Shown one piece after another: positions 5,576 to 34,938 of a stretch of 64,000 nt of DNA. The stretch is from assembly GCF_002954405.1 (NCBI RefSeq), contig NZ_MQWC01000004.1:2283909-2347908 (forward strand), read 5' to 3'. Position 1 is the first letter of the stretch, and each line of letters begins with the position of its first letter. Below the pieces are notes generated by a model. That model made no database searches and was not told the origin of the DNA. It saw only the letters and a list, made by a program, of their open reading frames with translations. The DNA is from Salinibacter sp. 10B (GTDB taxonomy: Bacteria > Bacteroidota > Rhodothermia > Rhodothermales > Salinibacteraceae). A program made the translations under genes and the position numbers.

Positions 5576-6052
5576 TCACGGATGGGTATCCTCGTACAGC
5601 CAGACCATCCGGTCCAGGTACCAGAGCTTGCTGGCGTAAACGAGCGCGGTCCCGAACACCGTGGGCCAAATCGACAGTTGCACGACGCCCCAGATCACGA
5701 ACAGCGTGCCGACGCCGTTGACCCCATTCAGCACATTCGGCACGACCCGGTGATGCTCGGGCACAGGATTCTCGTCGCGGTTCGTCCACACGCGCTCGCC
5801 AAGGACCGACTTTGAGGCCCAGTGGTCGAACGAGTGAGGGCGTCCAAAGAGGCGCGGATTGAACCACGTCCACAGCAGGGCCGCCGCGCCGGGCACCAGC
5901 GCCCACCATCCGATCCACACCCGGCTCCAGGCGGCCAGAATGAGCAGCGGCAGCACCGTGGTACGGCTCCACACGCTCCAGGGATTCGCGTGGCGTGCCC
6001 ACGTATCGTCGTCCATTCGGAAGAGCGAGGCAATGCGCTTGCCGACAGTCAT
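5576..6052 (-). CDS. DUF6653-like small membrane protein
   Basis: 158 residues from the ATG at 6052; a second ATG at 6016 is possible. The sequence begins with a soluble segment containing WARHANPWSVWSR, then two hydrophobic segments, an Asn/Pro/Arg/Phe motif (WFNPRLF), and two further hydrophobic segments near the C-terminus. This pattern matches a family of small uncharacterised membrane proteins (DUF6653). Its function is unknown. The stop codon lies just upstream of and in the same frame as the AraC gene. The hydrolase gene upstream ends about 137 bp away. Confidence 0.75.
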   Translation of the reverse strand: MTVGKRIASLFRMDDDTWARHANPWSVWSRTTVLPLLILAAWSRVWIGWWALVPGAAALLWTWFNPRLFGRPHSFDHWASKSVLGERVWTNRDENPVPEHHRVVPNVLNGVNGVGTLFVIWGVVQLSIWPTVFGTALVYASKLWYLDRMVWLYEDTHP

Positions 6053-6189
6053 GAGACGAGAAGAGTCAGCGAGAAACGAGAGGTGAGAGCCGCCCTCCCC
6101 CCCAGATACCGGACTCACAACCGATACAGTTATGGGCTCCTCCCTGGTCCCCGTGCTCACCGAGCGCCCCGCCCCACACTCGGAGCGGA

Positions 6190-7041
6190 TTACAGAAACG
6201 ACCGAAGAGCAACCTGCACGGCATCCGGCACTTCCTCCTGCGGCAGATGACCCGCGTCCGGGAAGGTCTTCGTCTCGGCCGTCTCGAAGAGCGCCTGCCA
6301 GCGCGCAAGGGCCTCCAGGCCGAAGCCCGGATCCTGCTCGCCCCACAACAGAAGCGCCGGAATCGAGCGCAGTCCGTCGCGCTGCTCCCAAAGCGACGCG
6401 TACCAGTCGTCTGCCCCGACCAGATCCCGCGCAAACAGCCACGGAGCGTGCCGCGTGTCCGGCGTGGGAAAGGGCCGCTGATAGTGCGCGTGTACTTCGG
6501 CGGAAAGGGCCTGATTCGTGAGGGCCGGCAGCATCACGTCCGGCGAGAAATTCCAGTGCGTGTAGACCCAACGTCCGAGGCGCGTCCCAAAGAAACGGCT
6601 CGCCCAACGCGTGGCCGTATTCTCAAGCGGCCACATCCACGTATTCAAGAGCACGAGACGATCGATCTCCTCCGGATGGTTAAGGGCGTAGGACAAGCCA
6701 ATCGGGCCGCCAAAGTCGTGCACGATCAACGTGAATCGATCCAGCTTCAGATGGTCGAGAAGGGCGCGAAGGTGATGGGCCTGTTGGGGCGGCGCCACGG
6801 CCTCCGTTTGCGGTTTGTCCGAAAGGCCGAAGCCGAGCAGGTCGGGCGCGATCACGCGATGGTCCTGCCGCAAATCGTCAATGAGGCGACGATAAAGGAA
6901 GGACCACGTCGGCGTGCCATGCACGAGCACTACCACGGGCCCCTTGCCTACATCAACGTAGTGCATCCGGCCGGCGCCGACGTCGAAGAAAGAGGAGGGA
7001 AACGGATATGCCGATCGGTCCAGCCAGTCGGGAGCAGTCAT
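6190..7041 (-). CDS. Alpha/beta-fold hydrolase, haloalkane dehalogenase-like
   Basis: 283 residues from the ATG at 7041. The oxyanion motif HGTPTWSFLYR, the acidic nucleophile motif HDFGGPIGL and the C-terminal catalytic His in DAGHLPQEE are all visible. This arrangement is that of the haloalkane dehalogenase/epoxide hydrolase branch of alpha/beta hydrolases, where the nucleophile is Asp rather than Ser. True haloalkane dehalogenases have Trp directly after the nucleophilic Asp to hold the halide. Here it is Phe, so activity on haloalkanes is not assured. It begins 40 bp after the stop of a TetR gene read in the same direction, so TetR may control it. Confidence 0.85.
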   Translation of the reverse strand: MTAPDWLDRSAYPFPSSFFDVGAGRMHYVDVGKGPVVVLVHGTPTWSFLYRRLIDDLRQDHRVIAPDLLGFGLSDKPQTEAVAPPQQAHHLRALLDHLKLDRFTLIVHDFGGPIGLSYALNHPEEIDRLVLLNTWMWPLENTATRWASRFFGTRLGRWVYTHWNFSPDVMLPALTNQALSAEVHAHYQRPFPTPDTRHAPWLFARDLVGADDWYASLWEQRDGLRSIPALLLWGEQDPGFGLEALARWQALFETAETKTFPDAGHLPQEEVPDAVQVALRSFL

Positions 7042-7081
7042 CAAGGTGGGGGGAGTGAGAAAAACAGAAAGGACGGACTCA

Positions 7082-7633
7082 TCAAGCCGCGGGAGAGAAG
7101 CGGCCGATGATTTGCTCGATGACATTGTCGAGCGGGTAGGATTCCGGATCACGAACGTAGTGCTGCCCCACCCCGTCGAGGGTGGCGAAGAGGAGACGAG
7201 CGCTTACGTCAGGCGCTTCGTCGTCCAGCGATACGAAGAGGGATCGGAGCCGAGCGTGGATCTCGTCGTACAGTCCGTCGAGCGTATCCCCAACCGCAGC
7301 CACCGCCTCGGGCTGCTGGCGCAGGCTGTAGAGCAGCTGCCAGAAGGCCCGGTGCGTGCGTACGGTGTCTAGGCAGGCAGTGACGAAGTGCCGGACCTGC
7401 TCCCCCGGAGGCCCATCGGGCTCGAGCTCGGAGAACGTCGTCTCGACCTGAGCCCTCCCCTCTTCCACAATCACACGAAGCAGATCCTCCTTTCCCGAGA
7501 AATAGTTGTAGGCCAGTCCGAGGGACACGTCCGCCGCCTCCGCAATGGCGCGCATGGAGGTGGCCTCGTAGCCGCGCCGGGCGAAGAGGCTGCGGGCAGC
7601 ATCGCGGATGTCGGTGGCACGATCGGTTGGCAT
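7082..7633 (-). CDS. TetR-family transcriptional regulator
   Basis: 183 residues. The N-terminal 50 residues form the TetR helix-turn-helix, with the typical segment TSMRAIAEAADVSLGLAYNY followed by F-x-x-KEDLL. The rest is a helical ligand-binding domain without an identifiable ligand. The ATG at 7633 places the HTH at the normal distance from the N-terminus. It is first in a probable two-gene unit with the alpha/beta hydrolase downstream, a common repressor-enzyme arrangement. The upstream interval of about 400 bp is filled with structured repeats rather than a divergent gene. Confidence 0.88.
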   Translation of the reverse strand: MPTDRATDIRDAARSLFARRGYEATSMRAIAEAADVSLGLAYNYFSGKEDLLRVIVEEGRAQVETTFSELEPDGPPGEQVRHFVTACLDTVRTHRAFWQLLYSLRQQPEAVAAVGDTLDGLYDEIHARLRSLFVSLDDEAPDVSARLLFATLDGVGQHYVRDPESYPLDNVIEQIIGRFSPAA

Positions 7634-32936: not shown

Positions 32937-33134
32937 ATGACGCACGCTCGTTCTTCTCCCTCTTCTCCCCCCAAACGACAGCCGAAACGTCAACCCAAAC
33001 GGCAGCCCAAGCGTCAGCCGAAACGGCAGCCCACAGAGCCGACGCGCGTGCCCAACCCTACACGTCGCGAACCGAACACGCCGGATCCCGATCGACGGGA
33101 GCCGAGTACGCCGAGCCCCTCCTCCGGCGAGTAG
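32937..33134 (+). CDS. Possible small basic repeat protein (PKRQ repeats)
   Basis: A frame of 65 codons from the ATG at 32937. Residues about 12-31 are five tandem PKRQ units, encoded by near-identical 12-bp repeats at about 32971-33031, followed by a Pro/Arg/Thr-rich acidic tail. The four-residue Lys/Arg/Pro repeat recalls histone-like or nucleic-acid-binding tails, but such low-complexity frames can also arise by chance from DNA repeats. The frame extends upstream to 32595 in antisense to the GGDEF gene. I am unsure it is expressed. Confidence 0.35.
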   Translation: MTHARSSPSSPPKRQPKRQPKRQPKRQPKRQPTEPTRVPNPTRREPNTPDPDRREPSTPSPSSGE

Positions 33135-33297: not shown

Positions 33298-34938
33298 ATG
33301 GATTCTTCCGCATCGGACCGTCCCGACTCGGCGACGTCGGGACTGGCGACAAGCGACGGAGACCTCCCGCTCTCTCTGCCCCGCCTTGACGCCGCAGCTG
33401 GTGAACAGAGCCGGATGCGGGAGGTGCTTGACCGCTCCGAGAGTGGGGCACCGGCAGCGGGGGAGGCCCTCCGCGACCTCTTCTCGACCGACGAGATTTT
33501 CCACCGCCTCGTCATTGCCGCCGACGAGGAGTTCAGTCGCTCTACGCGCCTTCTCTTCCTAAGCGGACTGGCCGCTGGTCTCTCAATCAGCCTGTCGTTT
33601 CTTGGCATGACGGCCCTTACGGCCCTCTGGCCCGGCGAAGCGGCTCGACTGGTGGGGTGCCTCCTCTACCCGCTTGGCTTCCTGTTCGTGGTGATGGGGC
33701 GCTACCAGCTCTTCACGGAGAACACGCTGACGCCGGTGACGCTCGTGCTCACCCGGATCGCAAGCATTCCCCGATTACTGCGCATCTGGGGCGTGGTCCT
33801 GGGGGCCAATGTATTGGGGGCGGCGCTCTGCGCCTACGTGCTCGCCACTACGGGCGTCTTTTCGCCGGAGATGGCAACGGTGGCCCACGACTTTGGACTG
33901 CACTTCCTGAAGATGTCCTGGGCGGACCTCTTCTGGAAGGGGGTCTTTGCCGGCTGGCTCGTGGCCGGGATGGTGTGGCTCAACTACGCCGCCCGCGACA
34001 TGACGTCCCGTTTCCTCATCACGTTTACTCTCATTTACACCGTGGCTGCGGCGGAGCTGGCCCACTGCATCGTAGGCTCGGCCGAGGTGCTCTACGTCGT
34101 CTTTCAGGGAGACGCGACGGTCTCCGCCTTCGCCCTTGACTTCCTGGTCCCGGCGGTGCTCGGCAACACCGTGGGCGGCGTCGGGCTGGTCGCCATTCTC
34201 AACTTCTCCCAGACGCGCGACCACCGCTTCCCGCACCGCGACTGCGGCCAGCTGGAGCTGACGTGGACCGAGTGGCTCTTCGGCCACTCGGCCGGCCGTC
34301 CCGAGTCGGAGGGGGATGAGGAAAACAATCAGCCGCTCGACCCGCCAGTGCACCCCGACGACCATGCATATGGCCCGCCCGATGCCCCCGTGACGGTCGT
34401 GCAGTACGGGGACTACGAATGTCCCACGAGCCGGCAGATCTACCGTTCGGTCAAGCGATCGATCATGGACCTTACAGACCGGAGCGACGTGACGAAGCCG
34501 CCGGTTCGGTACGTCTTCCGCCATCTGCCGCTGCGGCAACGTCACCCTCATGCCGTGCACGCCGGGGTGGCCGCGGAGGCTGCGGCTAAGCAAGGGGCCT
34601 TCTGGGACATGCACGAGCAGCTGTTTGCCCACCAGGACCACCTGGAGGACGAGGCCCTGCACACCTACGCAGCGGCGATTGGCCTCGACCTTGATCGATT
34701 TGACGCAGATCTGCAGGGCGATGCGCTCCACGAGCGTGTGATGGCGGACCGCAGCGCGGCGGTGAAGAGTGGGGTTCGCCGCACGTCCAACCTCTTTATC
34801 AACGGGGAGCGGTACCAGGGGGCGCTGACCCCAAACGCCATTGCCCGTGCCCTGCGCCGGCAGGCCGCCGCCGAGGCGCCCCTCCCGGACGACGATGAAT
34901 TCTACGACGAGCCGGAGCCGACGACCGACCGGGCGTAG
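33298..34938 (+). CDS. Formate/nitrite transporter-family channel fused to a DsbA-like thioredoxin domain
   Basis: 546 residues from the ATG at 33298. Residues about 65-325 form an FNT domain with six hydrophobic segments and motifs resembling YfdC-type members: RYQLFTENTLTPV, NYAARDMTSR and LAHCIVGSAEVLY, where the His is in the position of the central pore residue. An acidic linker leads to a thioredoxin_4/DsbA-like domain at about 358-530, starting DAPVTVVQYGDYECPTSRQ. The active site is Cys375-Pro-Thr-Ser378, so the second Cys of CxxC is Ser. A similar thioredoxin domain is known fused to NhaA antiporters. Redox gating or binding of the channel is inference. It converges on the amylase gene, nine bases apart. 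Confidence 0.85.
   Translation: MDSSASDRPDSATSGLATSDGDLPLSLPRLDAAAGEQSRMREVLDRSESGAPAAGEALRDLFSTDEIFHRLVIAADEEFSRSTRLLFLSGLAAGLSISLSFLGMTALTALWPGEAARLVGCLLYPLGFLFVVMGRYQLFTENTLTPVTLVLTRIASIPRLLRIWGVVLGANVLGAALCAYVLATTGVFSPEMATVAHDFGLHFLKMSWADLFWKGVFAGWLVAGMVWLNYAARDMTSRFLITFTLIYTVAAAELAHCIVGSAEVLYVVFQGDATVSAFALDFLVPAVLGNTVGGVGLVAILNFSQTRDHRFPHRDCGQLELTWTEWLFGHSAGRPESEGDEENNQPLDPPVHPDDHAYGPPDAPVTVVQYGDYECPTSRQIYRSVKRSIMDLTDRSDVTKPPVRYVFRHLPLRQRHPHAVHAGVAAEAAAKQGAFWDMHEQLFAHQDHLEDEALHTYAAAIGLDLDRFDADLQGDALHERVMADRSAAVKSGVRRTSNLFINGERYQGALTPNAIARALRRQAAAEAPLPDDDEFYDEPEPTTDRA

Follow-up and report, generated by a model that had tools for sequence, protein, structure and literature searches.

A YfdC-type FNT channel fused to a DsbA-fold domain with an altered thiol site in Salinibacter and related bacteria

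Results

The fusion gene and its domains

The window analysed here, a stretch of 64,000 nucleotides from Salinibacter sp. 10B (genome size 4.75 Mb), contains a single 546-aa frame that runs from ATG to stop with no internal stop codon (Table 1). A TTG start upstream of the ATG at 33298 would give an alternative product of 574 aa. In Pfam, Form_Nir_trans (PF01226) matched residues 66-302 with an E-value of 5e-52 and 177.1 bits (cut-off 34.6), spanning positions 1-238 of the 240 in the profile, and Thioredoxin_4 (PF13462) matched residues 353-519 with an E-value of 3.5e-19 and 70 bits (cut-off 23.2). We refer to this domain order as FNT-Trx and to the reverse order as Trx-FNT. The protein has five cysteines, at residues 121, 178, 257, 316 and 375. 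A sequence-only reading of this DNA had described an acidic linker between the domains and an active site with one cysteine, Cys375, where serine (Ser378) replaces the resolving cysteine; the acidity of residues 331-352 and the numbering and identity of both active-site residues were confirmed. Upstream of the gene, a 12-base tandem repeat of 5.3 copies lies at 32970-33033. PADLOC returned no anti-phage defence match.

Table 1. Features of the fusion gene, with positions given in the window.
Feature	Position	Strand	Evidence
CDS, FNT-Trx fusion, 546 aa	33298..34938	+	single frame, Pfam, kept in 9/244 class genomes
FNT channel domain, YfdC-type pore, residues 66-302	33493..34203	+	PF01226, pore residues, fold match
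Juxtamembrane tail, residues 303-330, predicted cytoplasmic, conserved RDCGQLELTWTEWLFG	34204..34287	+	alignments
Cys316, candidate partner thiol	34243..34245	+	alignment counts
Acidic linker, residues 331-352, mostly disordered in model	34288..34353	+	sequence, model
DsbA-fold (Thioredoxin_4) domain, residues 353-519, predicted cytoplasmic	34354..34854	+	PF13462, BdbD fold match
Active-site motif E-Cys375-P-T-Ser378	34417..34431	+	sequence, alignment
cis-Pro loop RRTSNLF, residues 494-500; Ser497 for proline, then Asn498	34777..34797	+	alignment
Acidic C-terminal tail, residues 526-546, low model confidence	34873..34935	+	sequence, model

Fold, pore type and topology

The AlphaFold model of the full protein (mean pLDDT 80.8) shows both domains with confidence, joined by a linker that is disordered. 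Cys316 and the linker have pLDDT values below 50; the model does not give the relative placement of the domains and predicts no contact between Cys316 and Cys375. Foldseek matched the FNT half to HSC, FocA and LciA with TM-scores (TMt) of up to 0.89. The Trx half, modelled alone with a pLDDT of 90.5, matched the fold of BdbD (Z 21.1, rmsd 2.1, 173 aligned residues) and further DsbA-like proteins. Lower-ranked matches were FrnE (Z 16.3) and YjbH (Z 15.0), both cytosolic DsbA-fold proteins, the latter an adaptor. Known BdbD and alpha-DsbA oxidoreductases have a CxxC site and are exported. The Trx domain of FNT-Trx shares their fold and differs from them in its CxTS site, in the missing cis-Pro and in having no hydrophobic segment ahead of the domain.

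Alignment with E. coli FocA and YfdC located the pore residues of the fusion protein at Y124, F128, R135, E141, N142, G219, V249, A255, H256, V259 and F282, with H256 as the central pore histidine and L138-F139-T140 as the L-F-T of the omega-loop. These residues match the YfdC-alpha set in Table 4 of a published survey (PMC5525234), namely the equivalents of Y75/F79, R86, E92, N93, G172, I/V/M202, A/S/T208, V212 and F254. At the K100-equivalent position, where 75% of YfdC-alpha members in that survey have proline, the fusion protein has Leu149; because this proline is absent here and is not invariant in YfdC-alpha, we name the channel YfdC-type only. Judged by these residues and the PF01226 match, the FNT domain is of YfdC type, as the sequence-only reading had proposed, and a predicted anion channel. 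In the main text of the survey the YfdC groups appear without an assigned function, and there is no occurrence of the words "fusion", "fused" or "thioredoxin". The fold, the pore histidine and the YfdC-alpha signature are shared with E. coli FocA (285 aa) and YfdC (310 aa), which, unlike FNT-Trx, lack a Trx domain.

As described in passages of PMC5572259, FNTs are pentamers whose protomers have both termini in the cytoplasm; the N-terminal helix of FocA is bound by PflB, and nitrite transport is regulated by the C-terminus of NitM. Since FNT termini are cytoplasmic, the Trx domain would lie in the cytosol in either order, and by analogy with this topology that of FNT-Trx should be cytoplasmic. 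From residue 331 onward no hydrophobic stretch was found (maximum 0.35), and the Trx domain has no recognisable export signal. The description of this domain as DsbA-like holds for the fold and the Thioredoxin_4 profile and not for location, which is expected to be cytoplasmic, unlike that of the classical exported DsbA.

Distribution of the fusions

A search with the 546-aa protein (P0001) as query found full FNT-Trx in 9 of 244 genomes of the host class. Four of these belong to the host family and the other five to family f18, in which the named copies come from Aliifodinibius and a Balneolaceae MAG. A tenth copy is carried by the Salinibacter ruber plasmid pSR116. Within the host genus just 2 of 13 genomes have the fusion, which is thus an accessory gene. 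The sequence-only reading was to be abandoned if the fusion occurred only here or if a frameshift had joined two genes. Neither is the case: a frameshift or assembly artefact is ruled out by the same intact frame in the nine class genomes and pSR116 and by dN/dS values far below 1. In one MAG copy (L052:6315-7736) the region of the first membrane helices is short by about 37 residues, through a real deletion or an assembly error. Plasmid records label these genes merely "formate/nitrite transporter family protein", and no description of an FNT-Trx fusion was found in open-licence PMC papers.

A scan of genome contigs confirmed 102 loci, of which 80 were kept. They comprise 5 FNT-Trx (repeats of copies from the class search or pSR116), 15 intact Trx-FNT, 4 broken or partial Trx-FNT (L078, L079, L087 and L122) and 56 with no Trx in the FNT frame. 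Trx-FNT hosts are haloarchaea and one MAG labelled Thermoplasmatales (L094), and near full-length Trx-FNT is present in at least 16 of 391 haloarchaeal genomes. PF01226 was also sought in the phyla to which L086, L143 and L148 belong (labelled Chloroflexota, Pseudomonadota and Actinomycetota; 201, 299 and 246 genomes, respectively). Of the frames found, some others of which were also long, 18 long ones were checked together with one from G047, and none of these 19 had a Trx match.

Several Trx-FNT loci are irregular. In Natrialba aegyptia (L079:5086-6927) an in-frame stop lies between the domains, and frame changes disrupt L087 and L122. In Halocatena salina (L067, about 5970-7485) the annotated start at 6535 deprives the record of the N-terminal Trx half of the open frame.

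Active site, cis-Pro loop and Cys316

All 10 distinct FNT-Trx copies carry C-x-T-S, where x is P, E or V and the protein described here has CPTS; Cys375, Thr377 and Ser378 are invariant. Two further features had gone unmentioned in the sequence-only reading, namely the loss of cis-Pro (Ser497-Asn498) and the conservation of Cys316. The cis-Pro is absent in 10/10 copies, and the residue after it is Asn in 10/10. The domain thus has the fold and Thioredoxin_4 profile of a DsbA-like oxidoreductase and lacks the CxxC and the cis-Pro loop. Among Trx-FNT rows, CxxC was found in 20 of 21 (the 21st, L122, is without this segment, which makes it 20 of 20 readable rows) and cis-Pro in all 21. The earlier suggestion that the site fits thiol binding or trapping holds for the monothiol FNT-Trx (10/10) and does not extend to the archaeal Trx-FNT, which keep CxxC. 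The lone Trx proteins of f18 genomes (n = 8) have CPYS and keep the proline; those of f13 genomes (n = 6) have CxxS, CPFG or CPWA and have lost it. The resolving cysteine would have been lost first and the proline later. CxxS monothiol sites have been described, and a role of cis-Pro against metal binding has been proposed, in the review-type analysis PMC2757866, as far as its sections on these sites go. With monothiol glutaredoxins the Trx domain of FNT-Trx appears to have the CxxS pattern alone in common.

Cys316 lies shortly after the last membrane helix. By alignment it occurs in 10/10 FNT-Trx, 1/20 Trx-FNT (L071) and 6/69 unfused relatives, a set that includes the stop-broken Trx-FNT L079; it is present in 6 of 7 f13 channels. 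Its presence in unfused channels means that it is not specific to the fusion, and shared ancestry could account for it. As a candidate partner of Cys375, Cys316 is suggestive only, and its distribution tracks relatedness.

Phylogeny, split forms and selection

In a tree of Trx domains (66 rows), those of FNT-Trx formed one group with weak support (61/70), nested in a starred set with the lone Trx of f13 (97/92). The Trx-FNT domains formed a separate group (89/79) near archaeal lone DsbA-like proteins. A common Trx clade for both fusions was rejected (p-AU 0.0065, 55 rows); the tested group was picked after the first tree, so this p-value is optimistic, and the test set was without 11 lone Trx rows scoring 90-130 (present in the 66-row tree), L025, L087 and L122. 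The same test did not favour a single origin of the fusion followed by permutation between bacteria and archaea. The archaeal Trx-FNT would have arisen separately, from a Trx stock different from that of the bacterial FNT-Trx. In a tree of FNT domains (99 rows, copies and fragments removed, quick method), fused and unfused channels were intermixed and FNT-Trx was not one group, requiring 4 changes, so that gains and losses cannot be ordered.

Eight f13 genomes had any match: six have both parts, as an unfused channel and as a lone Trx belonging to this group, one has the channel alone and one the Trx alone. Where the split genes share a contig (G038, G057 and G520), a long distance separates them. 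The lone Trx proteins start like MPLDPPLTASDH, at the same point as the fused domain, which starts QPLDPPVHPDDH, and the tails of the unfused channels stop near LDQPV. This split form looks like fission or a retained docking peptide. The f13 channels L191-L194 have a common conserved tail, GAETGS(L/M)LDQ(P/A)V, which could be a docking peptide or a remnant of fusion. Apparent partner domains in the 200 aa upstream of L156, L157, L164, L165 and L166 were judged open-frame noise, because Trx was the sole Pfam match in L156, L164 and L165, the three scanned, and start codons lie just ahead of the Trx.

For four close pairs, dN/dS (Nei-Gojobori) was 0.034-0.049 in FNT, 0.067-0.116 in Trx and 0.103-0.221 in the linker; for two distant pairs (dS >1) it was 0.20-0.25 in Trx and about 0.10 in FNT. 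Both domains are under purifying selection, and the constraint on Trx is weaker than that on the channel.

Genomic context

No conserved operon was found for FNT-Trx, and neighbours were shared only between two host-genus copies. The pSR116 copy has FeoA, FeoB, ZIP and Dps genes in its vicinity. A redoxin gene lies near 6 of 24 Trx-FNT loci, four of which also have a lone DsbA-like gene; the redoxin of L066 is AhpC-TSA by Pfam. Redoxin and DsbA-like gene pairs were seen in haloarchaea at L221:3420-4516 and L066:4840-5921, and in L221 the pair is followed by a dihydrolipoyl dehydrogenase gene on the opposite strand. Upstream of one Halocatena Trx-FNT are two formamidase genes and an AmiS/UreI gene, which would fit formate as a substrate. 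No paper joining bacillithiol and Salinibacter was found among open-licence PMC papers, and the portion of PMC7278568 devoted to haloarchaeal thiols does not mention DsbA.

Related fusions

The haloarchaeal Trx-FNT consists of the same two domains, with an FNT half 57-63% identical to that of FNT-Trx, and differs in its reverse order, its CxxC and cis-Pro, and the branch from which its Trx comes. Among the next best matches of the Trx domain were NhaA-annotated proteins; the three opened carry both domains (PF06965 and PF13462), in line with the NhaA fusion mentioned in the sequence-only reading. Here the same DsbA-like module sits on a transporter, C-terminally in L217 and L219 and N-terminally in L220. 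Unlike FNT-Trx, the NhaA-linked Trx domains keep CxxC (CPYC, CPYC, CAYC and CPHC) and the TP cis-Pro in all four opened. The N-terminal case, Trx-NhaA at L220:1977-3785, lies on a Sinorhizobium plasmid. In the host class NhaA occurred in 51 of 117 genomes with no frame above 514 aa, which is too short for NhaA and Trx (602-626 aa elsewhere). No description of NhaA with DsbA or thioredoxin was found in open-licence PMC papers.

FNT-Usp of haloarchaea and FNT-CBS of Pseudomonadota-type genomes resemble FNT-Trx in placing a soluble domain after FNT. They differ in that Usp and CBS are not Trx and that the FNT-CBS channel is FocA-like and outside this FNT clade. Usp domains followed FNT in the four haloarchaeal relatives scanned (L116, L119, L132 and L138). 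L116:5902-7839 has a C-terminal universal stress protein domain, and many haloarchaeal FNT frames of 600-670 aa may have the same make-up. L172-L176 are FocA-like FNTs, 483-501 aa long, whose C-terminal sequence resembles CBS; Pfam found CBS in the two scanned, L172 and L175. The factor common to FNT-Trx and the Usp, CBS and NhaA cases is a soluble domain, expected to lie on the cytosolic face.

Discussion

FNT-Trx is a genuine fusion that recurs, is maintained by selection and has an unusual, altered active site. For its mechanism, our best reading from the sequences is redox gating: FNT-Trx may be a YfdC-type channel whose cytosolic DsbA-fold thiol sensor gates the pore, which architecture, conservation, recurrence and selection lead us to propose tentatively, with slightly less than even confidence. 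The C-terminal domain would sense the cytosolic thiol redox state and gate the channel. The nucleophilic Cys375 is kept and, because the resolving cysteine and cis-Pro are lost, it would form a long-lived mixed disulfide with no oxidoreductase turnover. Cys375 could pair with Cys316 in the channel's juxtamembrane tail, with a low-molecular-weight thiol or with another protein, and the mixed disulfide would alter the cytoplasmic mouth of the pore. The thiol chemistry, the gating, the substrate and the Cys316-Cys375 bond are what we infer in this scheme.

We count in favour of a thiol sensor that Trx domains from different stocks sit at opposite ends of this FNT clade in bacteria and archaea, together with the f13 split form, the terminal control of FocA and NitM, the NhaA, Usp and CBS parallels, the CxTS site, Cys316, dN/dS and the redoxin neighbours. 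Against it we count the pLDDT below 50 at Cys316, the occurrence of Cys316 in 6/69 unfused channels, the lack of conserved neighbours and the 4 changes on the FNT tree. The apparently separate fusions in salt-loving bacteria and salt-loving archaea suggest that these channels respond to the intracellular redox state.

The loss of both CxxC and cis-Pro could equally reflect a lost redox function. The Trx domain would then be a degenerate docking or assembly domain with no part in redox chemistry, its DsbA fold kept as a scaffold that binds proteins, whether to engage a metabolic partner or to lend stability at high salt; we regard this as unlikely, though it is the strongest alternative. The related lone Trx proteins diverge further, to CPFG and CPWA, and the fold matches include the DsbA-fold adaptor YjbH (Z 15.0). 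Docking of PflB controls FocA (passages of PMC5572259). However, invariant Cys375, Thr377 and Ser378 in all 10 copies, and the retention of CxxC (20/20 readable rows) and cis-Pro (21/21) in archaea, argue against a purely structural role.

Less probable again is a relocation of the resolving cysteine to the channel, in which a Cys375-Cys316 latch within one protomer or between neighbours would open or shut the pore, and the archaeal dithiol switch would be independent, at the other terminus. We consider it improbable that the Trx domain is a coupled enzyme that acts on the transported species or passes electrons to a membrane-side peroxidase with no pore gating: redoxin and lone DsbA-like genes adjoin archaeal Trx-FNT and formamidase genes adjoin another, but this context is exclusively archaeal and the bacterial form lacks the resolving cysteine expected for turnover. 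Very doubtful is a metal or Fe-S site, with the lone thiolates of the pentamer (PMC5572259, in part) coordinating a metal or cluster as an iron or oxygen sensor in the absence of cis-Pro, which may prevent metal binding, as monothiol glutaredoxins tied to Fe-S work might suggest (PMC2757866, in part); no second conserved metal ligand was identified beside Cys375, and metal genes lie near the pSR116 copy only.

The independent fusions at either end, the split form and the NhaA, Usp and CBS parallels point to cytosolic control of YfdC-type pores and to one testable cysteine pair in FNT-Trx, Cys316 and Cys375, and the DsbA-fold module appears to work in the cytosol as a transporter add-on.

The same DsbA-like Trx module, with CPYC, was also observed fused to a diadenylate cyclase (DAC, PF02457) in f10 genomes, at L056:6282-7457 on the minus strand, the one locus on which Pfam was run, and in L018 and L059.
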